A stretch of 64,000 bases of DNA from Cyclobacteriaceae bacterium (lineage in GTDB: Bacteria > Bacteroidota > Bacteroidia > Cytophagales > Cyclobacteriaceae), in contig JAEUUE010000123.1 in NCBI GenBank assembly GCA_016787605.1, positions 25,985-89,984 on the forward strand, read 5' to 3'. Each line of letters starts with the position of its first letter. Position 1 is the stretch's first letter. The notes beneath the pieces were generated by a model. That model ran no database searches and was not told the origin of the DNA. It was given only the letters and a program-made list of their open reading frames with translations. Below are positions 2,103 through 18,958 of this stretch, in pieces. The translations under genes were made by a program, and so were the position numbers.

Positions 2103-3794
2103 ATGAAAAGAAACATTGCACTTGGACGGGTTATAGGTACAGAGGATTCTACACCCCTAGAGTTTTGGGTTGCAATTTCAAACCATCAATTTGTCCAATT
2201 GGATGAAGTTGTTGCACTGGAACGAGAACTACCTGACGGTAGGAAGGTTAGGATCTATGGAATGGTAACGCAGATTCGTGCCCGACATGAAGGCGCTCGA
2301 TTTGACTCTGATGTCTTTCTAATTGAGAATGGCATCCTTCCCGCTGAAGTCAGTCAGGCTGCGAAAATTACCACAACACGATTTGAACCTGAGATTTTCG
2401 TACCACCAATTCCAGGTCAGTTGGTTAATATCGCTCGCGAAAACCAACGTGATGAAGCCCTTTTCTTCGATCAAATGGAAAGGAAGCTTGCTATTGGCCT
2501 ATCTCGGGATGATGAGGTTTTTTATCTGAACTTTGATTTCTTGAATGGAACCAGAGGAGCCCATGTAAACATAAGTGGTGTATCAGGTGTGGCAACTAAG
2601 ACTACCTATGCCAGTTTCTTATTGTATAGCCTGTTTCACTCGGGGATTCTCGGTAATGATTCTATTAATACAAAAGCCATTATCTACAATGTCAAAGGAG
2701 AAGACTTGCTCTTTCTAGATCACACGAACTCGAATATCAAGAATGAGCAACGCACTAAGTACAGTAAGCTTGGGCTAACTCCAGGAGCATTCGAAAGTGT
2801 TGAATTCTGGGCTCCCCCTAGAAGAGATGATCCGAATGTTGTACCTGATGTCACATCAAGACAAAAGGGGGTATCTTCTTTTTTTTGGACAATTGCCGAA
2901 TTTTGCAAGCGTGACTTCTTGACTTTTTTGTTCGCCGATGCAGAAGATGATCGTCAGCAGTACACAATTGTAATTCAAAATGTAATTGCACGACTACGCG
3001 AGGCAACAAGCCTTGGCACTGGTGGTGTAAGATTAGATGGCGTAGAAGTCCGAATGTTCAATGATCTGGTTGAACTAATCGTTTCTCGTCTCAGAGACAC
3101 TGACACACAAACTGCCTGGGCAGGCCCTGCAATTGGGCAAGGAACAATAAATGCATTTGTTAGAAGGCTGTATTCAGCTGCTCCGCATGTTGGACACCTT
3201 ATACGTGGCGACGTATCCAAGCCTGAAAAGCATGTAATCAAGAACGAAGCACAAGTATCAGTTGTGGATATTCACAACCTAAATGACAGAGCGAAGCGAT
3301 TCGTTGTTGGCATCACTCTCAAAAAACTATTTGACGAAAAGGAAAAGAGTGGCCAGGCAAACCCACTACTGTTTGTTGTTCTCGATGAGCTAAACAAGTA
3401 TGCGCCAAGGGAGGGGTCTAGCCCAATTAAGGAAATCTTAGTTGACGTAGCAGAACGCGGTAGATCATTAGGGATCATTCTCGTCGGCGCCCAGCAAACT
3501 GCGAGCGAAATTGAACGGAGAATTGTGGCCAATTCAGCGATAAGAATTGTTGGAAGGCTTGATTCAGCCGAAGCAGGTCACGCAGAGTATGGTTTCTTAC
3601 CAGTCGCTCATCGTCAAAGAGCGACAATTTTAAAACCTGGAACCATGATTTTAGCTCAACCTGAGCTACCAATTCCCCTGGTTCTCGAATTTCCTTTCCC
3701 TTCTTGGGCTACGCGAGCTACTGAGGCCTCTGAAGAAAAATCTAAATCAAGGTCTAAGCTTAAAACAGATCCATTTGCTGGTCTAAAAAATTAA
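2103..3794 (+). CDS. herA: HerA-type DNA translocase/helicase ATPase
   Basis: 563 aa. HerA is a hexameric FtsK-HerA superfamily ATPase that pumps DNA and works with the nuclease NurA and with Mre11-Rad50 in end resection. The N-terminus (about 5-70) resembles a HAS-barrel (GRVIGTEDSTPLEFWVAI). The P-loop at 159-168 reads GVSGVATKTT, with Thr where the classical loop has Gly before Lys166. Walker B is VVLDE with D428/E429. Downstream, ILVDVAERGRSLGIILVGAQ and the ANSAIRIVGRLD stretch match the sensor/arginine-finger part of HerA. It is the first gene of an eight-gene plus-strand operon; sbcD begins 4 nt after its stop. The pairing with NurA and SbcCD three genes on strongly supports HerA over a generic DUF87 ATPase. 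Confidence 0.88.
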   Translation: MKRNIALGRVIGTEDSTPLEFWVAISNHQFVQLDEVVALERELPDGRKVRIYGMVTQIRARHEGARFDSDVFLIENGILPAEVSQAAKITTTRFEPEIFVPPIPGQLVNIARENQRDEALFFDQMERKLAIGLSRDDEVFYLNFDFLNGTRGAHVNISGVSGVATKTTYASFLLYSLFHSGILGNDSINTKAIIYNVKGEDLLFLDHTNSNIKNEQRTKYSKLGLTPGAFESVEFWAPPRRDDPNVVPDVTSRQKGVSSFFWTIAEFCKRDFLTFLFADAEDDRQQYTIVIQNVIARLREATSLGTGGVRLDGVEVRMFNDLVELIVSRLRDTDTQTAWAGPAIGQGTINAFVRRLYSAAPHVGHLIRGDVSKPEKHVIKNEAQVSVVDIHNLNDRAKRFVVGITLKKLFDEKEKSGQANPLLFVVLDELNKYAPREGSSPIKEILVDVAERGRSLGIILVGAQQTASEIERRIVANSAIRIVGRLDSAEAGHAEYGFLPVAHRQRATILKPGTMILAQPELPIPLVLEFPFPSWATRATEASEEKSKSRSKLKTDPFAGLKN

Positions 3795-3798
3795 GGTC

Positions 3799-4953
3799 AT
3801 GAGATTCCTACATACCGCTGACTGGCACGTGGGCAAAACGCTTAGGGGAAGAAACAGAGCGGACGAGCACGTAGCAGTTCTAGCTGAAATTGTAAGGATT
3901 GGGGAAGAGAAGAAAGTTGATGCCGTCTTCATTGTTGGCGATCTCTTTGATTCATCAGCACCTACACCTGAATCTGAACGCATTGTTTACAACGCTCTTC
4001 TTGAGTTAGCAAAGGTAACCCCACAGGTTGTCATTATTTCTGGAAATCACGACAATTCAATGCGCTTCGAGGCTATCAAGCCTTTGCTTCGCCTTACAAA
4101 TATCCATGTTTTGGCCACGCCGTCAAGACCAAGCGAAGGAGGAGTAATTTCATTTAAGAATGACCAAGGTGAAACAGTCAATCTCGCTTTACTTCCCTTT
4201 CTATCCCAGCGTTCAATCATAAGGGCCGACCAGTTGATCTCTGGTAGTGCCGCCGATCATGCACTCGAATATGCTGAACGGGCCAAAAGGGTGATAGAGG
4301 CACTCTGCCAAGATTTTTCAACCAAGAGCATCAATATCCTACTTAGCCACGCGATGGTCCAGGGCGGTCTTCTTGGAGGTGGTGAGCGATTGGCGCATAC
4401 AATATTCGAATACAGTATTCCGACAAGTGCATTTCCTCCTATCCTTCATTATGTTGCTCTTGGGCATCTTCATAGGGCACAAAAGCTTGCTGGTGCATGT
4501 CCCATCTGGTACTCAGGCTCACCTATCTCCCTTGATTTTAGTGAGACCAAAGATATCAAGTCAGTAAGCATAGTTGATGCTCAAGCTGGGAAACCAGCCA
4601 AAGTCGAGCAGATTCCGATCAAATCAGGTAGGCGTCTTAGAGTTATAAGTGGGACAATTGACGACCTAATCGCTATGAAGGACACTTTGGGCGATGACCT
4701 ACTAAGAGTTGACCTAATAGCATCTGACACAGCAGGCGTTTCGGACCAGGTTAGGGAGATACTCCCTAATGCTCTGGATGTCAGACTTGTTCGCAAAAAT
4801 CCTACCGCCCAACCCAAGAATACAATCAATACATCAAGGTCACCTCAAGAACTCTTTGCGCAATATCTCAAGGAACAAGATGATGACGACAAGGGGGTTA
4901 AGAAACTATTCAACGAGCTACTAGACGAAATTCATGCGACCGATCCGTCTTGA
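3799..4953 (+). CDS. sbcD: SbcD/Mre11-family exonuclease subunit
   Basis: 384 aa, a normal length for SbcD. It is the metal-dependent phosphoesterase subunit that, with SbcC, opens hairpins and trims DNA ends. All five metallophosphoesterase motifs are visible: D8-W-H10 (HTADWH), GDLFD with D48, GNHD (82-85), LLSHAMVQGG with H184, and LGHLH with H223/H225. The C-terminal third is the capping/SbcC-contact region and is less conserved. The gene lies 4 nt behind herA, and its last 20 nt overlap the start of sbcC, which suggests translational coupling. The organism probably also has a chromosomal sbcCD, which cannot be seen here; this copy sits on the island and has the island's AT-rich composition. 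Confidence 0.93.
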   Translation: MRFLHTADWHVGKTLRGRNRADEHVAVLAEIVRIGEEKKVDAVFIVGDLFDSSAPTPESERIVYNALLELAKVTPQVVIISGNHDNSMRFEAIKPLLRLTNIHVLATPSRPSEGGVISFKNDQGETVNLALLPFLSQRSIIRADQLISGSAADHALEYAERAKRVIEALCQDFSTKSINILLSHAMVQGGLLGGGERLAHTIFEYSIPTSAFPPILHYVALGHLHRAQKLAGACPIWYSGSPISLDFSETKDIKSVSIVDAQAGKPAKVEQIPIKSGRRLRVISGTIDDLIAMKDTLGDDLLRVDLIASDTAGVSDQVREILPNALDVRLVRKNPTAQPKNTINTSRSPQELFAQYLKEQDDDDKGVKKLFNELLDEIHATDPS

Positions 4954-7330
4954 GTTGGAAGGCTTTACAGCATTTAGAGAACCGACAAAAATTGATTTTG
5001 ACGGTGTCGAGACGTTTGTTCTGTCAGGCCCCACGGGATCAGGAAAATCAAGCGTAATAGATGCAATCACATTTGCATTGTACGGGAGTGTTCCACGGTA
5101 CAACGATCCAAAACTTGTCCACCCGATTGTGAGTCAAGGCTTAATGGAGGCCAAGGTGAGATTTGATTTCCAAGTCAATGATAAGGACTACACAGTTGTT
5201 AGGGTTGTTAGGAAACTGAAACGGAACGACGCTTGGGGGGCAACTACCAAGGAGGCACGGCTTGAGTCAGATGATAAAGTGCTAGCTGGCAATGCGTCCG
5301 AGCTTGATGACGAAATTAAGAAGCTGTTTGGACTTGATTTCAATCAATTCATATCGTGTGTGGTTCTTCCTCAAGGGGAATTCGCAAAGTTCCTAAATGA
5401 GCAACCAAGCAAGCGACAGGATCTATTAAAGAACCTGCTGCGGCTTCAAGTATATGAGCAAATAGGCAAGCGCGCACGAGCAAGAGCTGCTAATTATACA
5501 AGTACAAAGCAGGCCTATGAGGAACAGCTCTTGGAGTATTCCGCTGTGGAACCCTCGGATCGAAAGAACATTTTAGAGAAGATTGCTACACTCGAGAGTC
5601 TTTTGAAAGAAGCAATTGCAATTCAGAAGAGCGTCTCCAAACTTGAGGTTCAATCTTCTTCAATTGATGAATCTTTGACAAAGATGCGAGAGCAGGTCGA
5701 GCTATTAGAGGGATTGAAGCCACCAAAGGATTATACCACAGTTGACGATAGGTACAAGAAATTGGAAGCAGCTTACGCTATAAGCGCGAAGAAAGTAGCT
5801 GAAGCAGAGGCCGTTTTGGAAAAGGTTGAGAAAAAGCTTGAACGCATTCCTGACATATCCACCCAGAAGCAAATCTTGAAAGAGTACAACGACATGTCAA
5901 GTGAGAAAGAAGTCCTTGTGCGTCTGCAACGTGATATTGACAAAAGAAACAAACAGGAAAGTGAACTGGCAAAGCAAGTGGAAAAGTTGATGGTTGAACT
6001 TGACGATGTTCAGAGCAAAATTGATCAATTCAAGGATGAGCATTCGGCATACCATCTTTCAAAAAAACTGTCTAAAGGAGATAAGTGCCCTATTTGTGAT
6101 AGAGAACTGACTGCCAAGCCTCAACTTCAGCTGCCTAGAGGCACTAAAGAAATCGAGGCTATAAAATTGAAAATTGAAACTGCCATCAGGGATGCTCAAG
6201 AGAATCACCAGGATGCCAAAAATGGTGTTGCGACGATTTCTGGGAGCATAGCTAGCACCAAAACACGGTTAGCACTCCTTGAAAAAGCATTACGAAATGT
6301 GCCATCGGTCTCGGAAATCAAAGCTGCAATGAAGATTTATGAGGACCTTCAATCTGAATTATTAAAAGCAAAGGAGAATGTAAAGGCGTCCAGGAGGGCC
6401 GAGAAAGAAGCGCTCCAGGCAAAGGAAGTAGTATTGAAAGACCTCAAACTAAGGTGGAAACACTTTGATAGCGTCCGCGATACCGTTGCCGAATTGAAGC
6501 CACCCGCTTCTGACAAGGAGAAGTATGATGATTCCTGGAATGAGCTCACAACCTGGGCTAACAAATTGGGAAAAAAAATGCTTGGGCAAATTGATGGGCT
6601 TCTGAAAGAGGAATCATCAATTCAAAAAAAGATCCAAAATGCCTATGAGCCTCTCATTAAGGATATGCGGAAACAGGACATAAACGTAGACGAGAATAAG
6701 GAAATCAAAGAAGAATTGGTTGAACTACTTTCAGATGCAAAATCTGAATTGAAAAGGGTTGATCAAAGTGCAAAAAAAGCAAGAGAATTGAAAGACAAGA
6801 TTTCCTTGCTTACCAGCGAAATCGAAGTGGGAAGAAGACTCGCGCAGCACATGAGTGCAAATTACTTTGAGAGATGGATTTTGCAGGAGGCATTTGAAAA
6901 CCTGGTATTTGAAGGCAGCAAAAAGTTGGAGGAATTGACATCTGGTAACTTTTCGTTTGCGATTGATGAAAGACTAAATTTTGATATCATAGATCATCGA
7001 AATGCGGATGAAAGGCGATCCTCAAAAACCCTATCTGGAGGAGAAACATTCCTTGCGTCATTGGCATTGGCCCTGACGCTTTCTGAGCAGATTGCTCAGT
7101 TGGCATCTGAAGGATCGGCTCCGCTTGAATCAATTTTCTTGGATGAGGGATTTGGGACTCTTGACCCTGAAACTCTTGAAACGGTTGCAAGCGCTATCGA
7201 GGAACTCGCTTCAAAAGGGCGTGTCATTGGTCTTGTAACCCATGTTAAAGAACTGGCAGACAGAATTCCGGTCCAATTTCAGGTAACAAAAGGCTCGTCA
7301 ACGTCAACTGTGAAAAAAATAGTTTTGTGA
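4934..7330 (+). CDS. sbcC: SbcC/Rad50-family SMC-like ATPase, short form
   Basis: 798 aa, clearly shorter than typical SbcC (about 1000 aa or more), the reduction being in the coiled coil. ABC ATPase halves flank the coiled coil: Walker A GPTGSGKSS at 32-40, signature LSGGE at 700-704, Walker B FLDEGFG with D737/E738, and a following VTHVKEL switch region. A zinc hook CPIC is at 385-388, near the centre, so the antiparallel coil is intact with arms of about 180 and 300 residues. It forms the SbcCD (Rad50-Mre11) complex with the gene upstream, with which it overlaps by 20 nt; its stop overlaps the GTG start of nurA by 4 nt (GTGA). Confidence 0.93.
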   Translation: MRPIRLELEGFTAFREPTKIDFDGVETFVLSGPTGSGKSSVIDAITFALYGSVPRYNDPKLVHPIVSQGLMEAKVRFDFQVNDKDYTVVRVVRKLKRNDAWGATTKEARLESDDKVLAGNASELDDEIKKLFGLDFNQFISCVVLPQGEFAKFLNEQPSKRQDLLKNLLRLQVYEQIGKRARARAANYTSTKQAYEEQLLEYSAVEPSDRKNILEKIATLESLLKEAIAIQKSVSKLEVQSSSIDESLTKMREQVELLEGLKPPKDYTTVDDRYKKLEAAYAISAKKVAEAEAVLEKVEKKLERIPDISTQKQILKEYNDMSSEKEVLVRLQRDIDKRNKQESELAKQVEKLMVELDDVQSKIDQFKDEHSAYHLSKKLSKGDKCPICDRELTAKPQLQLPRGTKEIEAIKLKIETAIRDAQENHQDAKNGVATISGSIASTKTRLALLEKALRNVPSVSEIKAAMKIYEDLQSELLKAKENVKASRRAEKEALQAKEVVLKDLKLRWKHFDSVRDTVAELKPPASDKEKYDDSWNELTTWANKLGKKMLGQIDGLLKEESSIQKKIQNAYEPLIKDMRKQDINVDENKEIKEELVELLSDAKSELKRVDQSAKKARELKDKISLLTSEIEVGRRLAQHMSANYFERWILQEAFENLVFEGSKKLEELTSGNFSFAIDERLNFDIIDHRNADERRSSKTLSGGETFLASLALALTLSEQIAQLASEGSAPLESIFLDEGFGTLDPETLETVASAIEELASKGRVIGLVTHVKELADRIPVQFQVTKGSSTSTVKKIVL

Positions 7331-8250
7331 GCATCAAAATATCAGTTGAGTCCTGGATGCCAGACTATGCTTCCGCTATTGGAGAAGTCGATTTTGATCC
7401 CTCTGAGGTCAAAGTAAACTTAGAGATAGAACGAAAGGCAACAGATTGGGCTCCAATTTCGCCTGATGGCACTACTGGTCGCGAAGGTACCGTCTATTTT
7501 GTCGACGGGGTTAGGCGAATCGAAGCAATGGTATGGCTTGAAAAGGAGGGTTCACCACCCACACGAGGTGTTTGTGCCTCGATAGCGGCTGGAGTTGTGA
7601 AGGCTAGTGATCATGCTCATGTAGTCGATGTGCAACTAAGACGGGGCATCTATTCATCGGTGAACCCGCCGGATTTATCGACGCGCGCAGGTGTCTTTAA
7701 GCCAATTGCTGTTACAAGTGGAGATTTCAAAGACCTCAATGTCGCAATTCAAGAAAGTCTTGGAAGCCTCGAAATTGAAGTTGCAGCAGAGTTAAATATT
7801 GAAGAGGATGCAATTGTTATTGTAGATGGGCCACTTTCTGGTCATAAGAATGTGCCAGGCGGACTGGGGTTTATAAAGACGCATCGAGTTGCCTATTTGC
7901 CTGAACCACAATCCAAAATTCTTGCAAAGTTGACGGAAGGTCAGCGTACTCCAATTTTTCTTACTAGTTCAACCTGGACTCGCTTTTCATGGTATTTGAG
8001 ACTACCAGGTCCAGTTGTTCACCCATACTCAGGATTGGTTAGGCTCGAGGCAACGGGGGAACTCCCATCCGTTCAACAACTAGCCAATCGAAGCTCCAAA
8101 ATGCTTCCCTTCTATGCCTCTTTACCACATAAAGACCCTAGGGCGCCACAGAACCTCTTTCCGATTGGAGGATTAGAGAGGGAATTAAGGAGAAGACTTG
8201 GGGACAGGGAGATAGTTCATCGAGCATTAAAGGTTGCAACAATGAATTGA
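7327..8250 (+). CDS. nurA: NurA-domain nuclease, probable HerA partner
   Basis: 307 aa from a GTG start inside GTGA, overlapping the sbcC stop. NurA is a 5'-3' nuclease (RNase H-like fold) whose dimer threads DNA delivered by HerA. The family's first acidic motif is seen as VYFVDGVRR (D60), and a second acidic strand as IVIVDGPLSGH (D167). Near the C-terminus PGPVVHPYSGLVRLEA fits the usual closing motif. Overall similarity to textbook NurA is modest, so the name leans on motif order and on linkage to herA, sbcD and sbcC, the same four-gene set found in archaea. The following OLD-type gene starts 10 nt after the stop. Confidence 0.78.
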   Translation: MSIKISVESWMPDYASAIGEVDFDPSEVKVNLEIERKATDWAPISPDGTTGREGTVYFVDGVRRIEAMVWLEKEGSPPTRGVCASIAAGVVKASDHAHVVDVQLRRGIYSSVNPPDLSTRAGVFKPIAVTSGDFKDLNVAIQESLGSLEIEVAAELNIEEDAIVIVDGPLSGHKNVPGGLGFIKTHRVAYLPEPQSKILAKLTEGQRTPIFLTSSTWTRFSWYLRLPGPVVHPYSGLVRLEATGELPSVQQLANRSSKMLPFYASLPHKDPRAPQNLFPIGGLERELRRRLGDREIVHRALKVATMN

Positions 8251-8260
8251 AAAGAGATCC

Positions 8261-9889
8261 ATGCATGTTTCAAAAGTACATATTCAAAATTTCAAGGGTT
8301 TCAAGGGATCATTTAAAGTCTTGCTAAATGAAAGGATCAACATTTTTGTCGGTGACAATGAAGCTGGCAAATCGACAATAATTGAGGGCATTCATCTAGT
8401 GTTATCTGGTCTATTCAATGGCAGATATCTCCGCAATGAGTTGAGTCAGTATGTGTTCAACGTTCATGTGGTTGAAGAATACATCAAGAAACTAGAAAGT
8501 GGGGATACGCCGTTACCGCCTCATATACTTATAGAGTTGTTTCTCGAGGGAGCTGACCTGGCAGAATTCGAAGGAATAAACAACAGCGAAAGAGTTAAAG
8601 CGCAGGGCTTAAGTCTAAGGATTGCATTTGATGAGAAATTTCAAGCTGAATATGAAAAACTAGTTCTGGCCGGGAACATCAAGACAATTCCAATTGAATA
8701 CTATGGTATGGTCCTGTCAACGTTTGCCCAGGATGAGGGTATTACTCCTAGGACAATTCCGTTGAAGTCTGCACTAATTGACTCGACAAGTAGTCGCTAT
8801 CAAAATGGCTCTGACATCTACATTTCAAGGATCGTGAGAGAACTTCTAGATGAAGAAGAAGTAGTTAACATTTCGCAAGCTCATCGTAAAATGAAAGAGG
8901 GCTTCATGAACGAGGCTTCCATAAAGCTAATAAATGAGAAGATTCAGCGTTCAACGCAAATTTCCAATAAGAAAGTAGAACTCTCTGTCGATCTCTCGTC
9001 CAAAAATGCCTGGGAGAGCAGTCTAATGACGTATCTTGAAAATGTACCCTTCCACTATATTGGAAAAGGTGAACAGAGTATTATTAAAACTAAACTAGCG
9101 CTTGCGCACAAGAAGTCGAAGGAAGCAAATTTCATTTTACTTGAGGAACCCGAGAATCATCTTAGTCACTCAAAGCTTAGCGAGCTGATTGGCTATCTAA
9201 AAGCCGATAGTCAGGGTAAGCAAATTGTAATCACGACTCACAATAGCTTTGTAGCAAACAAACTTGGCTTAGATAGTTTAATTCTTCTCCACGATCAAAG
9301 AACCATTCGCTTAAATGATCTAAGCTCAGACACAAAGGAATTCTTCAGGAAACTTTCCGGATATGATACGCTGAGACTAGTCTTATGCTCTAAAGCCATA
9401 CTTGTTGAGGGCGATTCCGACGAGCTGGTAATACAAAAGGCTTACTTAATAGCCAAGGGTCACCTGCCCATTGAGGATGGAATTGATGTGATTTCAGTAG
9501 GAACTTCATTCATGAGATTTCTTGAAATAGCCGTCAAACTTTGTAAGAAAGTTGCTGTGGCAACGGACAATGACGGAAATCTCTCAGCAGTTGAGAAGAA
9601 ATATAGAGACTTCATCGGTTCGAACACCAAACCATCAATCAAGATTTGTTACGATGAGACTGTAGATACGGGCTCCAACGAGAAAATCAATTATAATACA
9701 CTTGAACCAAAACTGTTAAAGGCGAATGGTTTGACATTAATGAACGAAGTTCTAGGTAAGACATTCAAATCAGATGAGGAGCTTTTACTCTATGCCCGTT
9801 CCAATAAGACAGAATGTGCACTGAAGATTTTCGATTTTGGGAAGGAATTGAAATTCCCACAATACCTTCTTGACGCGATCAATTTCTAA
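8261..9889 (+). CDS. OLD-family ATPase-TOPRIM nuclease (GajA-like)
   Basis: 542 aa. The N-terminal ABC-type ATPase has Walker A GDNEAGKST at 31-39 and Walker B LLEEPENHLS (295-304) followed by VITTHNSFVANK. The C-terminal TOPRIM domain has VEGDSDELV (E383, D385, D387) and VATDNDGN (D436, D438). This is the architecture of overcoming-lysogenization-defect (OLD) endonucleases, of which the class encoded next to a UvrD-type helicase includes Gabija GajA (about 580 aa). The next gene is exactly such a helicase and overlaps by one base (TAATG), so a Gabija-like pair is the best reading. Unlike stand-alone Gabija loci, it sits in one operon with herA-sbcDC-nurA. Family assignment is strong; functional identity with Gabija is inferred. 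Confidence 0.88.
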   Translation: MHVSKVHIQNFKGFKGSFKVLLNERINIFVGDNEAGKSTIIEGIHLVLSGLFNGRYLRNELSQYVFNVHVVEEYIKKLESGDTPLPPHILIELFLEGADLAEFEGINNSERVKAQGLSLRIAFDEKFQAEYEKLVLAGNIKTIPIEYYGMVLSTFAQDEGITPRTIPLKSALIDSTSSRYQNGSDIYISRIVRELLDEEEVVNISQAHRKMKEGFMNEASIKLINEKIQRSTQISNKKVELSVDLSSKNAWESSLMTYLENVPFHYIGKGEQSIIKTKLALAHKKSKEANFILLEEPENHLSHSKLSELIGYLKADSQGKQIVITTHNSFVANKLGLDSLILLHDQRTIRLNDLSSDTKEFFRKLSGYDTLRLVLCSKAILVEGDSDELVIQKAYLIAKGHLPIEDGIDVISVGTSFMRFLEIAVKLCKKVAVATDNDGNLSAVEKKYRDFIGSNTKPSIKICYDETVDTGSNEKINYNTLEPKLLKANGLTLMNEVLGKTFKSDEELLLYARSNKTECALKIFDFGKELKFPQYLLDAINF

Positions 9890-11010
9890 TGGGAGCCAGG
9901 GTAATTCTCGCAACAGCAGGATCAGGCAAGACAAGACACCTTGTCTATGAGTCGATCAAGCAAACTAAAAATAGGATCTTAATTACTACTTACACGCAGG
10001 CTAATGAGCTTGAAATAAGGAAGAAGTTTATTGAAGTCAATAAGTGCATACCATCAAATGTAACTGTGCTTTCATGGTTTTCCTTTCTGCTTAAGCATGG
10101 TGTTCGACCCTTTCAACCATTGCTATCTGAAAAGAGAATAAATGGACTTCTTCTGGTCAATAGTCAACGAGAATCTGGAGTCAAGTTCATTGACAAAAGA
10201 GGTATAGCAATTCCATATAGTGAAACCAAAGAATTTGAAAGACACTATTTTACAATTCACAACCGCAAGATATTTTCAGACAAGTTGTCAAAGTTTGTAT
10301 GCAGGTGTAACGCAAAATCTTCCGGCGCCGTCTTTAGTAGGATAATTCGAGTTTTCCCTACAATTTATATAGATGAGGTTCAGGACTTAGCTGGTTTTGA
10401 TCTTGATTTCATTGAGGGTCTGTATAAAAATGGAGCCAACATCGTTATGGTTGGCGACCCGCGACAAGCAACGTATTCTACAAACACAACATCTAAGAAC
10501 AAGCAATTTAGAAAGTCAGACATTGTTAGGTTTTTCGAAGAGCGTGCTGAACACATTTCAATAGATGACTCGTCCTTAATAACAAACTACAGGTGCACTA
10601 AGCTAATTTGTGATCTATCCAACAAGCTATTCCCAGACTACCCACAAGCCATTTCTGGTAACCATCACGTTGTAGATCACCTTGGCGTTTTTTTTCTAAA
10701 AACCGACGATGTTGAGGAATACCTCAACACTTTTCACCCAGTCCAATTGAGGGATTCAGTCAAGACAAAGGTAAACGCAGCATATCAGGTGATGAATTTT
10801 GGCGAATCAAAGGGTCTTTCATTTGACAGGGCACTGATTTACCCAACTAGTCCAATAATTCAATGGCTATTCGATCACTCGACTGATTTAGCACCAATTA
10901 GCAGGGCTAAATTTTACGTAGCATTGACCCGCGCTCGATTCAGTGTTGCAATTATCTACGATTTTCAAGAGTCCACCAGGGTCGATGGCATATCTAATTT
11001 CAGTTTTTAA
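9889..11010 (+). CDS. Short UvrD-type helicase (GajB-like)
   Basis: 373 aa, short for the family (GajB is about 490 aa, UvrD about 720). SF1A motifs are present in order: Walker A ATAGSGKTR (GSGKT 11-15), Ia region LITTYTQANELEI, Walker B YIDEVQDLAG (DEVQD 162-166), motif III VMVGDPRQATY, motif IV NYRCTKLICDL (about 233), motif V-like SKGLSFDRALIY, and motif VI FYVALTRARFSV (about 343-354). The reduction must come from the 1B/2B insertions. Helicase-plus-OLD is the Gabija arrangement. The start ATG shares one base with the stop of the OLD gene, typical of translational coupling. Confidence 0.86.
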   Translation: MGARVILATAGSGKTRHLVYESIKQTKNRILITTYTQANELEIRKKFIEVNKCIPSNVTVLSWFSFLLKHGVRPFQPLLSEKRINGLLLVNSQRESGVKFIDKRGIAIPYSETKEFERHYFTIHNRKIFSDKLSKFVCRCNAKSSGAVFSRIIRVFPTIYIDEVQDLAGFDLDFIEGLYKNGANIVMVGDPRQATYSTNTTSKNKQFRKSDIVRFFEERAEHISIDDSSLITNYRCTKLICDLSNKLFPDYPQAISGNHHVVDHLGVFFLKTDDVEEYLNTFHPVQLRDSVKTKVNAAYQVMNFGESKGLSFDRALIYPTSPIIQWLFDHSTDLAPISRAKFYVALTRARFSVAIIYDFQESTRVDGISNFSF

Positions 11011-11019
11011 ACTTTGAGG

Positions 11020-11760
11020 ATGAACCTTGTTAAGTTCTGTGCTTGTGAATTCGGTATTGAGAATCTTGAAAAAGGTCAACTCTATTTTAACAGTTTAAGC
11101 AATTTGAATGACCCTTTTGAAGGAATCTTCCGGTACAGACCCTCAACAAATCAGGATGAATTTGAAAGGTTCTATCGGATGTACTTTGGTGATAACGAAA
11201 AATTAGATTACTATTTCCAAAACAAACACGAATTCTATAGAAAAATAAATGAAACCCTTGAATGGAGATACTCCAATAATGGTATCTGCTGCTTTAGCGA
11301 TGAGACCTGTATTAATGACATTCGCATGTGGTCTCATTACGCTGATAAGCAGAAGGGGTTTTGCTTAAGGTTTAATGAGACCTTAAACTTTTCAACGCCA
11401 CGTGAACTCAACGAACCCGACAAACTGGTTGGCCATCCAAGCGGGCCTTTTAAAGTCGAGTATACTGATGAGTACATAAATGAAGATCCGACGGCTAAGA
11501 AATTAAATCAGCGAACATTCCTGACGACAAAATTCGTCGATTGGTCGCATGAAAAGGAGTATAGATTTATCTCGCCAATACCAGGTCCCTATCTGTTCGA
11601 AAAGCAATCGCTTATAGAAGTCGTTTTCGGACTAAATTTTGACTACACACAACTCGCAACAATTAAAGCAACAATTCAAAGCACTTATCCTGCCTTAAGG
11701 TTTCGATGCCAGGTTCGGGTAGGTGGTCGCTTCGAGCTCACTAGCATTGGTCTAGATTGA
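11020..11760 (+). CDS. DUF2971 family protein
   Basis: 246 aa from ATG 11020; a TTG six bases earlier is in frame but the ATG behind TTGAGG is preferred. DUF2971 proteins are of unknown biochemical function and recur in defence islands and mobile elements. Family hallmarks seen: N-terminal YFNSLSNLNDPFEG, the core CCFSDETCINDIRMWSHYAD leading to GFCLRF (residues about 90-118), and VDWSHEKEYRF (173-183). It lies 9 nt after the UvrD-type gene and 12 nt before the next gene, in the same operon. Whether it is an effector, sensor or processing protein cannot be told from sequence. Confidence 0.82.
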   Translation: MNLVKFCACEFGIENLEKGQLYFNSLSNLNDPFEGIFRYRPSTNQDEFERFYRMYFGDNEKLDYYFQNKHEFYRKINETLEWRYSNNGICCFSDETCINDIRMWSHYADKQKGFCLRFNETLNFSTPRELNEPDKLVGHPSGPFKVEYTDEYINEDPTAKKLNQRTFLTTKFVDWSHEKEYRFISPIPGPYLFEKQSLIEVVFGLNFDYTQLATIKATIQSTYPALRFRCQVRVGGRFELTSIGLD

Positions 11761-11772
11761 ACCTACGTTAAA

Positions 11773-12732
11773 ATGAGATACCCATTTGAGGGGGCCGAAA
11801 AATCCATTTTGGAGTTTGAAGAGGTCCTCAATGCGAACGGAATTTCAATTGAGTCCAATTCCGACCTAGAAAGAGTCTCGCTTCTAGTCCTGGAAGCTAA
11901 CGGCAAAGGCAAGAAAGAAATACCTCATGATAACAAACAAGACATTAGGCCCTTTTTTGCTGATGTTGCAGGAATACATGACTTTACTAGGAAGGTTGTT
12001 AAGCACAAGAACCATTCCGATTTTTCACAATTAATTCCACATCTAAGAATCCTAAACAAAGCAAACACAACAGTAATGACTTCAAGAAGTCTAGTATCGG
12101 ATGACGGGAATAACAAATTAATGGAGTTGTATATCGCATTGCTATGCATGGATTTCGCAACAAATATCAAGCTCGACGACCCGAATAATTCCAAGGGTGA
12201 CAATGCAGATATAATGTTCAGATTTCGCAATATTACCTATGCAATAGCTTGTAAGGCTATGCACTCAAGGAACCCCAAGACACTGCATGATGCACTGTTG
12301 AAAGGTACAAGTCAAATCATGTCGTGTGCTTCTGAGAGAGGCTTGGTTGCGGTTAACTTTAAGAACCTCATCGATTGGGACGAGATTTGGCCTATAACTA
12401 ATAAGGCTGAAGTTGAGAACCATAATGCAGAGCCACTATTCGGTTGTTTCCCCGACGTTAGCGTTCCAAATAAAATACTTGAACAGTTTGGGACTAAGGC
12501 GAGAACCGACCTTATTGAAACTCTGGGGTTGGACAATCTTAGGAATCTTGAGACTGAAAAGTCTCCTGCTGCTTTTCTTATTTTTCTACAGGCACTGACT
12601 TCTATACAAGATGGAATGGATTGTCCACCAACTATTCTGAAGACCATGCATTTTGTCAGTTTTAATGGAGTCGCAAAATTGGATCTTGAAGTCGCCGAAA
12701 AACTCAACGAGGCAATGCATGATCAACTTTAG
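11773..12732 (+). CDS. Unrecognised protein, possible PD-(D/E)XK-like nuclease core
   Basis: 319 aa, no family recognised with confidence. The middle contains an arrangement reminiscent of a PD-(D/E)XK nuclease: a helix with E119 (KLMELYIALL), then D146 in NADIMFRFRN, and after 14 residues IACK with K161, followed by a Gln-containing helix (LLKGTSQIM). In the canonical motif the residue two before the Lys is Glu/Asp; here it is Ala159, so the site may be altered or the resemblance accidental. No signal peptide or membrane segment. It is the last gene of the operon, 12 nt behind the DUF2971 gene, and its stop lies 10 nt from the stop of the convergent RES-like gene. Confidence 0.6.
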   Translation: MRYPFEGAEKSILEFEEVLNANGISIESNSDLERVSLLVLEANGKGKKEIPHDNKQDIRPFFADVAGIHDFTRKVVKHKNHSDFSQLIPHLRILNKANTTVMTSRSLVSDDGNNKLMELYIALLCMDFATNIKLDDPNNSKGDNADIMFRFRNITYAIACKAMHSRNPKTLHDALLKGTSQIMSCASERGLVAVNFKNLIDWDEIWPITNKAEVENHNAEPLFGCFPDVSVPNKILEQFGTKARTDLIETLGLDNLRNLETEKSPAAFLIFLQALTSIQDGMDCPPTILKTMHFVSFNGVAKLDLEVAEKLNEAMHDQL

Positions 12733-12742
12733 GTGGGCCTAT

Positions 12743-13618
12743 TCAGAGGCCAATTTCATCCCCATGGTATTCTTGCCAATTGAAACTAGTCTCGTGAATT
12801 CCAAAATCCTTGCAGTATCGACGAAGGGTAACCATGTTATCATTATTTCTTCCGACAAATTTGAATTCACCAACCGTTTCGAGCCGGAGATAACCATCTA
12901 CTGCAGCAGGGAGTAGCGCCACGTTTTGGCCTTTGTATTCAGTTGGTACACTTGGATATGTTATTCCCATTAATCCCGTTCTATTCCATAGATAATTTGC
13001 ATAAGCAGCCGAAATCTTGTACTTGTAGTCTTGCCCCTTACCAATGTCGGTTCTGGCAAATTCATTGCTAAAAAGGGTGCCTTGCGCAATACAGTGATCT
13101 CTCTGCGGGTGAGCAGTGATATTCTTTAGTTGATTATTGAGGGACATCTGTACGTACTCATTTACCTTCAATGCGGCCTCACTAAAAATCATCTCGACAA
13201 CTTCTAAATCTTGCAGAACTCTCCATCTACTTAGAGTGAAGGTTTCCTCTACTGTATCATGGTCATTCAATGATTTGACCAAATCTGAGGTTTCAAAGTA
13301 GGCCGCAACTCTTGGTTGTGGAATGTGCTTTGTAATTAGAGATCCATAGAAAACACCTTGACCAGGAACATTAGCCCTTCCAAAAGCCCTTATCCCTGCT
13401 AGTATTTTGGGATCGCTGATATAGCTAATCTGATCCTTTTGTGTAAAAGGCACTGCATGGCTATTTATGCGAACCCTATCAATGAATGACCCCTTTTTAA
13501 GGATTGCAGTAGGAATGAACTTATCACGCAGGTCTTCCACACTTCTATAAATAATTTCATAGTCAACATGTTCGAGGCCATCTCTTACGTCCGAAAGAAA
13601 CTTCAAAGTTGGATTCAT
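12743..13618 (-). CDS. RES-domain-like protein
   Basis: 291 aa. Residues about 45-110 resemble a RES domain: FIDRVRINS (Arg48/50), GRANVPGQGVFYGSL (80-94, the Gly-Arg-x-Asn-x-x-Gly and Tyr signature) and AAYFET (E109). RES proteins of toxin-antitoxin systems degrade NAD+; others are larger and of unknown role. This one is longer than the roughly 150-160 aa toxins, and no Xre/MbcA-like antitoxin gene is adjacent, so a classic module is not supported. The C-terminal half shows no motif I know. It is convergent with the defence operon at 10 nt spacing. Family call is moderate; NAD+ cleavage is only a possibility. Confidence 0.6.
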   Translation of the reverse strand: MNPTLKFLSDVRDGLEHVDYEIIYRSVEDLRDKFIPTAILKKGSFIDRVRINSHAVPFTQKDQISYISDPKILAGIRAFGRANVPGQGVFYGSLITKHIPQPRVAAYFETSDLVKSLNDHDTVEETFTLSRWRVLQDLEVVEMIFSEAALKVNEYVQMSLNNQLKNITAHPQRDHCIAQGTLFSNEFARTDIGKGQDYKYKISAAYANYLWNRTGLMGITYPSVPTEYKGQNVALLPAAVDGYLRLETVGEFKFVGRNNDNMVTLRRYCKDFGIHETSFNWQEYHGDEIGL

Positions 13619-13729: not shown

Positions 13730-14191
13730 TCATCCAATCATCCCCTCGTCTGCAAACGAGTAGTATCCATCCGTTGTGCATATCAGATGGTCAAGGAACT
13801 GAATCTCAAGGCATTTTGCTCCTTCCTTTAGCTTCCTAGTGAGGTCAATATCCGATTGAGAGGGCTTAAGGTTTCCAGATGGATGATTATGAGCCACAAT
13901 TATCCCGCTTGCAGCACTTTTCAGAGCTACTGCAAAGATGATCTTCGGATCGGCCACCGTGCCCGATACGCCTCCCTGGGAAACCTTCATGAATCCGATG
14001 GCCTTGTTAGCTCGATTCAGAAGAAGCAACATGAAAGTCTCGTAGAGCTCAAATCCGTCTTTATCCCAATTTTTCATCAGAAGATCATATGCGTCTCTGG
14101 AGCTGCTCACTTGCGGCCTGTCTTTCGGAGACACTTTGGTCTTGAACGAGAGCTGAACCTCAGCAACGTTCATAAGTTTAATTGATTCCAT
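13730..14191 (-). CDS. radC: RadC-like JAB-domain protein
   Basis: 153 aa, the JAB/MPN metalloprotease-like half of RadC without the N-terminal UPF0758 helix-hairpin-helix part. The metal motif is plain: E51 (ETFMLLLLN), H101-N-H103-PSGNLKPSQSD with S105 and D114. Short RadC proteins of this kind are common on integrative elements and plasmids of Bacteroidota and phage-related islands; their biochemical role is unsettled. It lies downstream of the small hypothetical gene on the same strand, but a rho-independent terminator stands between them, so it may have its own promoter or be expressed by read-through. Confidence 0.88.
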   Translation of the reverse strand: MESIKLMNVAEVQLSFKTKVSPKDRPQVSSSRDAYDLLMKNWDKDGFELYETFMLLLLNRANKAIGFMKVSQGGVSGTVADPKIIFAVALKSAASGIIVAHNHPSGNLKPSQSDIDLTRKLKEGAKCLEIQFLDHLICTTDGYYSFADEGMIG

Positions 14192-15559: not shown

Positions 15560-16888
15560 TTAGCTTCCCTTCACTTTTCTATAACGACCGTTCTTCAGCT
15601 TTTCGACGTATTTTGGCTGGAGGGCCGCTAAGTCTAAATACATCGTTCGCGAATCTATTTCAAGTCGCTTGGCAGCTTCAACCAAATCCAGACTTGTAAA
15701 TTCATTAGGAAACTTCTGGATTTCCTGAAGTAGCCTTTGTCCTTTGCCGACTGTAATGCAATCTGCTTGAATTGGCAAGTCACTAATATGCTTCAATGCC
15801 ACTTTCGCAAATACATCGGTTAGATGTAGGGCCAATTCAAAGTCCCAATCATCACATTCTACAGTTGATGATTGATCCTTCCTCTCGGCTCGTCTCAGTG
15901 CAGTTAAAACCATACACACCTTAAATGCTCCAAGGCCCAGTCTCTTGACACTGCTATGGAGTTCAGGATGTATCGGTACCAAGTTTTTCATCATCTCACT
16001 GAAATGGCAATTCAAAACATCCCATTGACCCTCAGAGAGCATCATCTCGAAAGGATTTTGGGCATCGAATATCAGATTCTCCTTTACGCAATCTTGAATT
16101 GGAGCAAGCCTGTCGTCTATCGCTCCGTTGCTTCCCTTCGGGGAGACATCTCTCCACATGTAGTTAGGCTTGAGCTCAAAGAAGAAGAACCTACTGAACA
16201 AGCCTCCTGCCACCGACTCAATCAGTGGCCAAAGCTGTGTGGGCGTTCCTGAAAGCACTAAGGAAATCCTAGGGGTCTCGATCTCGATAAATGTCGAAGG
16301 ACCTCCAGAACCTTTCCTCATTAAGGAAATTGGCTCCTGTTGAAATGCTTTCAATAATAAGTCAGTAAAACTTCCCCAATCCTGTCCCAAGGCATTCGTC
16401 AATGTAACTGCTTCAGTTTCGAAGATTACACCCGCACCCTGGGTTTCCACTAAAGCTGCGTGCAGCGCTGCCGAGCTAGTGTTAGCCGGAAGGAAGACTC
16501 TGCTTTTTCCAAAGGGTTCTGGCAACTTCTTTACCATTTCACCAAATGGATTAAACAGTTTCCGTGCATACTTCATAACTCCCTTTCCAGATGCCGGAGG
16601 TGCAGTTACAATCACAAACAGGTTAGGATAGAAACGCTGCTTGTCATACACGCCCGTAACAGAAATACATCCGCTCAATACGCCAAGGGTACTTATGAAG
16701 AGTAAATCTCGTTCTTCATCATTGGACGCAAGTTCACAAATACCCTTAAGAGGCTGCGGAAGTTCTTTTAAATCACTTGATGTTACTAAATTGTTTCTTG
16801 TGGTTCCCGCGCTTTCAGTTTCACGGGTTGTTTCATTGTTGGCCGGCACTACTGTAGAGCCGCTTTCCAACTTGTCGTTTTCACTCAT
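15560..16888 (-). CDS. DUF3987 replication-associated ATPase
   Basis: 442 aa from ATG 16886-16888, which lies directly behind AAGGAG; an in-frame ATG 20 codons upstream would add an Arg/Ser-rich stretch unlikely to be coding. DUF3987 proteins have a RecA-like ATPase fold and occur next to integrase and excisionase genes on Bacteroidota integrative elements and plasmids, probably acting as replication helicase/primase-associated factors. The P-loop APPASGKG is at about residues 96-103, followed by a long helix (MKYARKLF), and an SGTPTQLWPLIE region fits the family's sensor strand. The C-terminal 70 residues look like a winged-helix DNA-binding tail. Confidence 0.78.
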   Translation of the reverse strand: MSENDKLESGSTVVPANNETTRETESAGTTRNNLVTSSDLKELPQPLKGICELASNDEERDLLFISTLGVLSGCISVTGVYDKQRFYPNLFVIVTAPPASGKGVMKYARKLFNPFGEMVKKLPEPFGKSRVFLPANTSSAALHAALVETQGAGVIFETEAVTLTNALGQDWGSFTDLLLKAFQQEPISLMRKGSGGPSTFIEIETPRISLVLSGTPTQLWPLIESVAGGLFSRFFFFELKPNYMWRDVSPKGSNGAIDDRLAPIQDCVKENLIFDAQNPFEMMLSEGQWDVLNCHFSEMMKNLVPIHPELHSSVKRLGLGAFKVCMVLTALRRAERKDQSSTVECDDWDFELALHLTDVFAKVALKHISDLPIQADCITVGKGQRLLQEIQKFPNEFTSLDLVEAAKRLEIDSRTMYLDLAALQPKYVEKLKNGRYRKVKGS

Positions 16889-16959
16889 CTCCTTGTTGAT
16901 CAAAACAAAGGATGACCGGCGGCGGCTCCGCCAACTAGCGGAGCGCACCGGTCTTCGTT

Positions 16960-17334
16960 CTAAATGGTTGTTTGCTGAAGCATCTCTAGCGAAACTACCC
17001 TGCTGTTCTGGACATATTTGTCCAAATCATCAAGTTTGAAAAGCAGCTGCTTCTTTGTTGGCTTGAAAAATGGAATCTTTTTCAAGCTCGTGAGTTTGTA
17101 CAATTTGGACTTGCTGATTTGCAAGTATTGAGCTGCCATATCCGAAGATATGGGTGCCCCATTGCTGGGATGCGGAGCCGGTACCTGGTACCGACTTTGC
17201 TCCGTTGTACTTACTTTTTGACCCCTTTCGTTGTTGCTTGCAGTCTGGGCGGGTGGTTGTGCCCCTTCGGAGGGCAACCCAGTCTGGGCCTTGTGTCGAG
17301 TTTTAGGGGACGATTCCCCTTGTCTCGTAAACAT
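16960..17334 (-). CDS. Excisionase-like helix-turn-helix protein
   Basis: 124 aa. The C-terminal half (about 65-112) is a MerR/excisionase-type winged helix: ISSDMAAQYLQISKSKLYKL, then the wing IPFFKPTKKQLLFKLDDLDKYV. The N-terminal 60 residues are low-complexity and probably disordered (Pro, Gln, Ser rich). Position between the integrase and the DUF3987 gene, all on the minus strand, fits a recombination directionality factor or a small regulator of the island. Confidence 0.8.
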   Translation of the reverse strand: MFTRQGESSPKTRHKAQTGLPSEGAQPPAQTASNNERGQKVSTTEQSRYQVPAPHPSNGAPISSDMAAQYLQISKSKLYKLTSLKKIPFFKPTKKQLLFKLDDLDKYVQNSRVVSLEMLQQTTI

Positions 17335-17395: not shown

Positions 17396-18742
17396 TCACG
17401 CTACCTCAAGAAAATATTTCGTCACTATTGGTTCATTTGCCAATGGTTGCTTTTGATCACTTTTGGCTTCCTGACTATCGTAATCCTTTATTCTTGCGAG
17501 CAATTTGGTGTCAACTGCGGCGATCCGTGTGGAATCGAACCTCCGAAGGTATGCCGATGTTGTTCTGGTACTTGCATGACCAAGCATTTCGCTAATGAAT
17601 TCTATTGATACATCATTCCATTTCAGCATTGACGCATAAGTGTGTCTGGCCCAATAAGTTGTAACTTTTGGAAGCCCAATTCTACTGCAAATACGCTTCA
17701 GAGCCTTATTTGTCCTTTTAATCACATCTGCAATCCTTTTATCGATTTCAACAGGGGTCATCCCTGTACGAAGTATATTAAGAAGATAGTCTTCTGGAAG
17801 TATTCCTGTGGTTAACTCCGTCAAAACCAGGCGTAACTCGTTCGAGACAGGGACAACCAGCAATTCCTCATTGGTTTGAGTATTTCTGGTCTTGTGTCGG
17901 ATGTAGGTTATCAAACCATTATGGACATTACTGACCTTAAGCATTGATATGTCTCTGAAATTCATCCCGTGGCAATACAAGGAGAAAATCCACAAGTTTT
18001 TCGCCTTCTTTTCGGCTTCGGACCTTACTTCAGCATTTAGCAAACGCCTCAATTGATCAAGATTAAGTGCCTCACCTTTATGGCCAGATGCCATTCTTAT
18101 CGAATAGGTACCCCTTTCATTTTTCCTCTTCGAAAACGGGTAAAACTCTGCTAAGGACTTATCCTCCTGAGCGGCGATATTCCATATAACCTTGAGAGAT
18201 CGCATGTATATGGCCACAGTATTCTTATTTACGTGTCGGACATCCAATAGCCAATTCTCAAACTTTTGCAGGACTGGAACGGTCAAATCATGAACTTCAA
18301 TGTCCTTCTTGAGGAAAGAAGCAAGAGCGACTTTGGCACATTTATAGGTCCTAGCCGTACCAATCCTCCCCTGGCTCTCAAGATCTTGTAAGTATTTGTC
18401 GAAAAGGCCCAAAAAAGTGCTTCGGTTCTTTTTACCAAACTCTCTTTTGAACCGTTCCCAGCTGAATGGGACCTTACCGTTGCTAGTACAACGGTTAGCT
18501 GCTTCCCTTGCCATAACCTCGGTGGCTCTGATCACATCTCGAATCTTTCTGAGGTCCCTGGAAATACCGGGGTCGGTTTGAATCTTTTCCCAATCGGCTT
18601 CGCTAAGCATCAATTTATGACCTTCGAATTTGACAGGCACATACTTGGAAAGTGTCTGCCATGCAATCCTCACCTTTATGGCCCTTCTACCGCTCTTGTC
18701 GGGATAATACCTCCATTGAACAATGGAAACTGTAACTGACAT
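17396..18742 (-). CDS. Tyrosine recombinase (island integrase)
   Basis: 448 aa, a phage-type tyrosine integrase of the Bacteroidota form (N-terminal arm-binding and SAM-like core-binding domains, then a catalytic domain). Catalytic residues visible: R263 in HGMNFRDI, a Lys in YIRHKT (about 284), R366 in TYWARHTYAS, H389 in MLGHAS and the nucleophile Y398 in TTSAYLRRF. The gene ends the island: its start lies about 135 bp from the tRNA-Asn fragment at 18877-18923, the expected place for an integrase using a tRNA 3' end as attachment site. A TACATTTG promoter box precedes it. Confidence 0.95.
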   Translation of the reverse strand: MSVTVSIVQWRYYPDKSGRRAIKVRIAWQTLSKYVPVKFEGHKLMLSEADWEKIQTDPGISRDLRKIRDVIRATEVMAREAANRCTSNGKVPFSWERFKREFGKKNRSTFLGLFDKYLQDLESQGRIGTARTYKCAKVALASFLKKDIEVHDLTVPVLQKFENWLLDVRHVNKNTVAIYMRSLKVIWNIAAQEDKSLAEFYPFSKRKNERGTYSIRMASGHKGEALNLDQLRRLLNAEVRSEAEKKAKNLWIFSLYCHGMNFRDISMLKVSNVHNGLITYIRHKTRNTQTNEELLVVPVSNELRLVLTELTTGILPEDYLLNILRTGMTPVEIDKRIADVIKRTNKALKRICSRIGLPKVTTYWARHTYASMLKWNDVSIEFISEMLGHASTRTTSAYLRRFDSTRIAAVDTKLLARIKDYDSQEAKSDQKQPLANEPIVTKYFLEVA

Positions 18743-18876: not shown

Positions 18877-18923
18877 TCTGACTGTTAATCAGAGGGTCGT
18901 TGGTTCAAGTCCAACAGGAGGAG
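18877..18923 (+). other. Island attachment site: 3' half of a tRNA-Asn(GUU) gene
   Basis: The sequence reads as a tRNA-Asn from the 5' strand of the anticodon stem to the discriminator: stem TCTGA, loop CTGTTAA (anticodon GTT at 18884-18886), stem TCAGA, variable GGGTC, T-arm GTTGG-TTCAAGT-CCAAC, acceptor AGGAGGA, G. The D-arm and 5' acceptor strand are absent: the preceding bases are unrelated AT-rich island DNA. This is the attachment-site repeat left by integration into a tRNA gene; the intact tRNA gene should lie at the other island end, beyond position 1. Confidence 0.88.
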
Positions 18924-18958
18924 CTTAAAATACCCAGGCTGTTTCAATGTTCTGAAAC

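Follow-up and report, generated by a model that had tools for sequence, protein, structure and literature searches.

A 64,000-nucleotide stretch from a Cyclobacteriaceae bacterium (GenBank assembly GCA_016787605.1, contig JAEUUE010000123.1, positions 25,985 to 89,984 of the forward strand; hereafter, the window) carries eight open reading frames (ORFs) at positions 2103–12732, all on the plus strand, in the order HerA-SbcD-SbcC-NurA-GajA-GajB-DUF2971-P8. The locus appears to consist of two complete, separable machines, a DNA end-resection quartet (HerA to NurA) and a Gabija pair (GajA and GajB), with two accessory genes, stacked as the cargo of an integrative element and probably read as one transcript. 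Quartet and Gabija occur side by side in two unrelated genomes, which suggests joint action at DNA ends. Our preferred explanation, held tentatively, is that they are two separable modules acting there in complementary ways without being one complex. The sequence data show the anatomy of the locus, its homologies, marks of mobility, and a single recurrence of the junction; from them, we infer co-transcription, functional coupling, anti-phage function, and the activities of the individual proteins.

The ORF coordinates confirmed the gene order and the spacings of −20 to +12 nt given by an earlier sequence-only reading of the window, and its gene names held in Pfam, PADLOC, NCBIfam, and PDB searches. 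Within the quartet, the gaps are +4 nt (HerA-SbcD), −20 nt (SbcD-SbcC), and −4 nt (SbcC-NurA). The quartet is joined to Gabija by a junction of 10 nt (8251..8260, plus strand); gajA and gajB overlap by 1 nt, and gaps of +3 and +12 nt precede DUF2971 and P8, respectively. The start codon of DUF2971 is TTG, and with the in-frame ATG two codons on, the gap to GajB would be +9 nt. A single terminator-like site was found on the plus strand, at 4014, inside sbcD. The scan for sigma-70 promoters remained at chance level (21 found vs. 19.2 expected). Judging from the spacing, the eight genes probably form one transcription unit.

HerA (2103..3794, plus strand) is a predicted DNA translocase of the Deinococcus type. 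A profile of six HerA rows matched PDB entry 7f6d at 1e-201, and other HerA-type ATPases were matched remotely (e.g., 8xau at 8.4e-6). According to the available part of the source (PMC9960219), 7f6d is the Deinococcus radiodurans HerA-NurA complex, and by this match HerA is assigned to the family of that complex. The Pfam HAS-barrel score of HerA was below the cut-off (20.3 vs. 25.2 bits); the SbcD, SbcC, NurA, OLD/TOPRIM, UvrD, and DUF2971 domains passed theirs. Walker B reads LDELNKY and Walker A reads SGVATKT (K166, T167). The latter is odd in having threonine at the site before the lysine, a trait of the whole HerA family; a Walker A motif usually has glycine there. Among 85 aligned HerA rows, the Walker B expression matched 83 and the Walker A expression 70, the other 15 being rows not matched by the particular expression used. 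NurA (7327..8250, plus strand), a predicted nuclease, scored above the cut-off of PF09376 and matched the NurA chain of 7f6d at 3.4e-18. Its residues D50, E139, and D157, which we read as the putative catalytic ones, lie in columns at least 93% conserved among 50 NurA rows. The features expected of a HerA-NurA pair, a HAS barrel with Walker A and B motifs in the first and conserved acidic residues in the second, were present.

SbcD (3799..4953, plus strand; Metallophos 7.8e-12, SbcD_C and TIGR00619 above cut-off) is a predicted Mre11-type nuclease, and SbcC (4934..7330, plus strand; AAA_23 2e-25, SbcC_Walker_B 3.4e-12) is a predicted Rad50-type ATPase with a zinc-hook-like CPIC motif. The motif columns of SbcC were conserved in the alignment. 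Its match to TIGR00618 (2.9e-81) scored under the cut-off of that model, and its length is 798 vs. 1043 for the model. Phosphoesterase, ABC ATPase, and zinc hook, which together characterize SbcCD/Mre11-Rad50, were all recognized.

GajA (8261..9889, plus strand, 542 aa) is a predicted OLD ATPase with a TOPRIM domain, matching PADLOC model PDLC00102 at 8e-214 over residues 1–541 and OLD-like_TOPRIM at 1.2e-10, with PF20469 above the cut-off. GajB (9889..11010, plus strand, 373 aa), a predicted UvrD-like helicase, matched PDLC00148 at 1.1e-129, and both PADLOC matches were near full length. The OLD-plus-UvrD arrangement, taken by the sequence-only reading for the Gabija layout, is on these matches a complete predicted Gabija system of the short subtype, beyond merely Gabija-like.

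The junction of quartet and Gabija recurred in one further genome of the phylum (G220), where GajA-GajB-(210 aa)-HerA-SbcD-SbcC-NurA lie on a single strand (L192:1513-13535) between a transfer-messenger RNA (tmRNA) gene and an ion-channel gene. These seven genes are all the ORFs of at least 120 aa between the flanks, overlapping ORFs of the opposite strand excepted. GajA of G220 matched PDLC00099 (1.6e-192) and GajB matched PDLC00105 (1.1e-167); the 210-aa protein had no match in Pfam, PADLOC, or NCBIfam. No attachment-site repeat was detected at the tmRNA locus, just 11–21-nt matches at E ≥ 1.6, and no integrase was recognized among the genes scanned. For the GajA proteins of the window and G220, the best segment spans 174 residues at 26%, and the GajB proteins align over a 44-residue match only. 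Since the Gabija subtypes are unrelated and Gabija precedes the quartet in G220 and follows it in the window, the two junctions were probably built separately. Besides the window, only G220 had a quartet among the 395 and 114 genomes sampled from the phylum: HerA was detected at E ≤ 1e-3 in 21 of the 395 genomes, with a high score in the window and G220 only, and among the 114 genomes of the order of G220 in that genome alone. Four of the 21 (G407, G222, G313, and G177) have a more distant HerA, and the remaining matches were weaker again. In the HerA tree, both fell within a weakly supported group of mixed phyla and were not clear sisters.

The surroundings of HerA and of Gabija were surveyed separately. 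Profiles of GajA and GajB, built from nine sequences each, were run on six frames of 103 other HerA loci: the best 80 of a genome contig scan, five from plasmids, and 18 from two phyla. In 44 of them (30/80, 4/5, and 10/18), all four genes were present with 2 kb or more on either side; elsewhere the neighbors may fall outside the stretch. No locus contained Gabija (0/103). The GajA profile scored best against SMC-type proteins (L078, L082, and L085; 4e-9), and the GajB profile matched solely large UvrD helicases, at L060 (2e-8) and at L204 (1e-8), which is not a quartet locus. On control Gabija loci outside the profile set, GajA was recovered in 8/8 and GajB in 7/8; at L244, the exception, gajA is followed by transposon genes. 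Gene calling by codon usage missed known genes, such as DUF2971 of the window; the six-frame, stop-to-stop Gabija search gave the same result. By tblastn, no relative of GajA, GajB, DUF2971, or P8 was found in the best 80 HerA loci. HerA and NurA were likewise absent from the flanks read at 15 Gabija loci besides the window and G220; one of the 15 has sbcDC, and the other 14 had no quartet gene in the flanks. The sequence-only reading had held that finding the halves only apart in relatives would speak against it; they do lie apart in nearly all loci (0/103; 0/15 for HerA or NurA), G220 being the genome that joins them.

The genes after gajB vary. At L193, L194, and L045, Gabija of the window type is followed by AbiEi/AbiEii genes in G286, by DUF6088 and AbiEii genes, as annotated, on a Rhizobium plasmid, and by ORFs of similar size in G322. 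Among the seven plasmid loci read with GajA of the G220 type (L239–L242, L244–L246), one, on Sulfitobacter p4 (L239:5643-15639), comprises a Fic-annotated gene, GajA (58% to that of G220), GajB, three opposite genes, and sbcDC about 1.7 kb past gajB. A Sphingopyxis plasmid with GajA of this type has sbcD about 28 kb away. We regard plasmids with Gabija near sbcDC as anecdotal because SbcD-like genes occur on 155 plasmid records.

The first accessory gene (11014..11760, plus strand) encodes a DUF2971 protein (PF11185 above cut-off) matching the PADLOC candidate family PDC-S31 at 1.3e-26. Its relatives occur on 35 plasmid records, every one at less than 60% identity. P8 (11773..12732, plus strand) is uncharacterized: Pfam and NCBIfam gave no match, PADLOC a single weak one (NsnC, E 0.018), and the PDB profile search a best E of 0.45; the AlphaFold model was unusable (predicted local distance difference test score 37.9). 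Residues E118, D146, and K161 are invariant in the alignment of four rows and, read as a motif, resemble a PD-(D/E)XK pattern. Homologues of P8 were found in three of 395 phylum genomes, its own included, and on one Rhizobium plasmid; the regions read around the other three contained no relatives of GajA or GajB, and no P8 relative was confirmed in viral contigs. In G128 (L041:3321-12857), the homologue (52%) adjoins an 1829-aa methyltransferase-helicase protein and conjugative-element genes (TraG, DUF4133).

These data bear on the proposal of the sequence-only reading that a translocase-driven nuclease, the OLD nuclease, DUF2971, and P8 work as a single composite anti-phage complex. The tight gene spacing, the recurrence of quartet with Gabija in G220, and the DUF2971 gene some 4 kb beyond gajB on a Cupriavidus plasmid are in line with such a machine. 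However, the eight-gene order, which had been expected to be conserved across islands, was seen in the window only, G220 having Gabija, the 210-aa ORF, and the quartet. Searched by tblastn, neither the region around G220's Gabija nor three further Gabija regions from the phylum had a relative of DUF2971 or P8. P8 homologues sit elsewhere, as in the conjugative element of G128, and Gabija was missing from the 103 other HerA loci read. The single composite system is therefore not supported, and we consider it very improbable.

The quartet itself is a widespread, autonomous bacterial operon. The contig scan confirmed at least 491 stretches encoding HerA relatives. Among the best 80 loci, tblastn found all four genes in order in 47, HerA-SbcD-SbcC in 20, HerA-SbcD in six, and HerA only in seven; many of these loci are clipped by contig ends. 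In L101 and L112, HerA is followed by 10 kb with no sbcD, and other loci have genes between HerA and SbcD. None of the 80 was named as Bacteroidota, and some had no phylum name. HerA was found in 5/277 genomes in the phylum of the Acidobacteriota locus and in 19/321 in that of the Chloroflexota locus; by gene call, 12 of the 18 regions read from these two phyla had the four genes, each time arranged NurA-HerA-SbcD-SbcC. Six of 72,556 plasmid records carry HerA, and four of the five read have all four genes; the locus on a Streptomyces plasmid adjoins Wadjet genes. TonB receptors, MFS transporters, DAHP synthase, and SMC are among the neighbors of the quartet. There was no support for its being enriched in defence islands. 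Among 77 flanking proteins scanned of 126 listed, from 15 loci, with the first 25 families tabulated, no PADLOC family had more than two matches, and the commonest Pfam family among those listed was that of TonB receptors (4). The PADLOC GajB models were matched by one of the 77 (best 3.4e-37), apparently the large, 1028-aa UvrD helicase at L060, whose neighbor has 738 aa. A more distant HerA in G407, G222, G313, and G177 (L034–L037) lies in a different recurring gene set, which also has a protein of about 390 aa upstream. Among the members scanned in L035 and L036 were GHKL-type ATPases and a radical-SAM protein, together with an OLD-like ATPase in L036. This cluster is possibly another HerA-based defence system.

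By its boundaries, the integrative element predicted to carry the eight-gene operon occupies about 23.9 kb and sits in a tRNA-Asn gene. The intact tRNA-Asn (G000:C172:21002-21078) lies 4.9 kb left of the window. At the other end, attR (18877..18924, plus strand), which repeats the 3′ part of the tRNA over 48 bp (46/48), stands beside the tyrosine integrase of the element (17396..18742, minus strand). The backbone, also on the minus strand, includes a RadC-like JAB protein recognized by Pfam (13730..14191), a DUF3987 protein (15560..16948), and a helix-turn-helix protein (16960..17334). Further cargo comprises an HNH protein, a 359-aa uncharacterized protein, a RES-domain-like protein (12743..13618, minus strand, convergent with P8; match just below the Pfam cut-off), and a large helicase (window positions 1 to about 1716; L129:15345-18989) that carries an MTES_1575 nuclease domain at its C-terminus, is related to PDC-S37 and Hhe of PADLOC, and diverges from the operon. 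The guanine-plus-cytosine (GC) content is 39–47% in the eight genes, 39–48% in the element genes measured, and 52–60% in four chromosomal genes on the right. Among 39 genomes from the genus and order of the host, HerA was found in that of the host only. The tRNA-Asn had matches in 30/30 genomes of the genus; an empty site was not demonstrated in the 29 loci compared, whose flanks were unaligned past the tRNA and at most about 25 nt around it. The sole protein match in this comparison was 44% over 63 aa of an amidohydrolase in L142, in the other orientation. The host genome (3.98 Mb) carries PorP/SprF and CHU_C type IX secretion genes, which point to Bacteroidota.

The location on an element raises the possibility that the quartet serves the element, repairing or recombining its DNA when that is linear or broken as it is transferred and integrated, Gabija being ordinary cargo. 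The quartets on plasmids and the 155 plasmid records with SbcD-like genes agree with this; yet several quartets adjoin chromosomal housekeeping genes, viral contigs yielded no confirmed HerA relative, and the integrase module of the element is separate and on the opposite strand. We regard this explanation as unlikely.

Complementary action of two modules accords with what has been reported for Gabija. According to the available part of a 2025 preprint, Gabija blocks circularization of linear DNA that RecBCD has not handled, phage end-binding proteins license Gabija, RecBCD translocation and nuclease activity protect the host, and a recB− strain does not tolerate highly expressed Gabija (PMC12407980). 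A division of labor at DNA ends would fit the window, in which a transferable end-resection complex adjoins Gabija. SbcCD would open or clean the DNA end, and the HerA ring would feed the duplex to NurA, so that the quartet may process or degrade unshielded linear DNA. Gabija would strike the ends shielded from processing by phage proteins, and processed host ends would be spared. A bolder version, in our view improbable, is a portable, self-licensed Gabija, in which HerA-NurA-SbcCD of the element replaces the role that host RecBCD has in Pseudomonas and marks processed ends as self, acting as a guarded bait. If so, phage end-binding proteins that block the quartet would expose the phage to Gabija, and Gabija would be independent of host repair enzymes. 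As a general replacement for RecBCD/AddAB, the quartet was unsupported: PDDEXK_1 was over the cut-off in 18/18 tested genomes with this HerA, a family that also matches 12/14 controls, archaea included, and so is no proof of AddAB.

Several observations weigh against complementary action. The host has two PF12705 matches on one contig, an apparent AddAB-like pair, and may therefore manage without the quartet for protection. The preprint has RecBCD as its subject and contains no occurrence of SbcCD, Mre11, or NurA (PMC12407980). Defence genes cluster, and Gabija is common, in more than 15% of genomes according to the available part of PMC10781630. Because the junction was the reason for choosing the window, G220 is the single independent case; set against the 44 other quartets with adequate flanks, it gives 1/1 vs. 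0/44 (p about 0.02, post hoc). The GC content steps at the junction from 43–47% in the quartet to 39–41% in GajAB-DUF2971-P8, and this difference suggests that the quartet and the Gabija half are of separate origins. The same step favors coincidental stacking, in which the element picked up in turn the resection operon, a Gabija system on its own, and two unconnected defence-type genes; a shared promoter would then be a convenience without functional coupling. So do the 103 HerA loci with no Gabija, 44 of them well flanked, the 15 Gabija loci with no HerA or NurA and with varying genes, such as AbiE, past gajB, and the other defence-type genes of the same element. Against stacking stands G220, where the junction is repeated with an unrelated Gabija subtype, in the other order, and in a short insert with no other recognized defence gene. 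Chance stacking is a serious contender, nearly as likely as complementary action; we still lean slightly to the latter, with a junction that recurs once and was probably built independently.

At stake is how Gabija tells self from foreign DNA. A natural pairing of Gabija with a different end-resection complex would allow a direct test of whether another end-processing machine licenses or restrains it. The analysis also places the HerA-NurA-SbcCD operon on a mobile element and across many bacteria. By the available part of PMC9960219, few bacteria possess NurA-HerA, in contrast to the at least 491 stretches of one scan. The claim of the sequence-only reading that no described system unites all eight genes agrees with the literature searched: among the matches listed from the open-licence literature, which includes few subscription papers, no title or abstract opening concerned Gabija combined with HerA, NurA, or SbcC.

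Each half of the locus is already known. Like known Gabija, the pair is an OLD ATPase-TOPRIM protein followed directly by a UvrD-like helicase; it differs in its short subtype (542 and 373 aa), its position 10 nt after a resection operon, and the DUF2971 and P8 genes that follow. D. radiodurans NurA-HerA is matched by both proteins and has the same predicted end-resection role, whereas here the genes share one operon with sbcDC on a mobile element. The archaeal herA-rad50-mre11-nurA cluster, as named in the title of Constantinesco (2004), groups the same four functions; in the window, the proteins are of the bacterial SbcCD type, and their bacterial host carries them on a mobile element. Defence systems such as HerA-DUF4297 and further HerA-effector pairs, by their listed descriptions, also place a HerA-superfamily translocase beside an effector, whereas in the window a Deinococcus-type HerA is joined by NurA and SbcCD.

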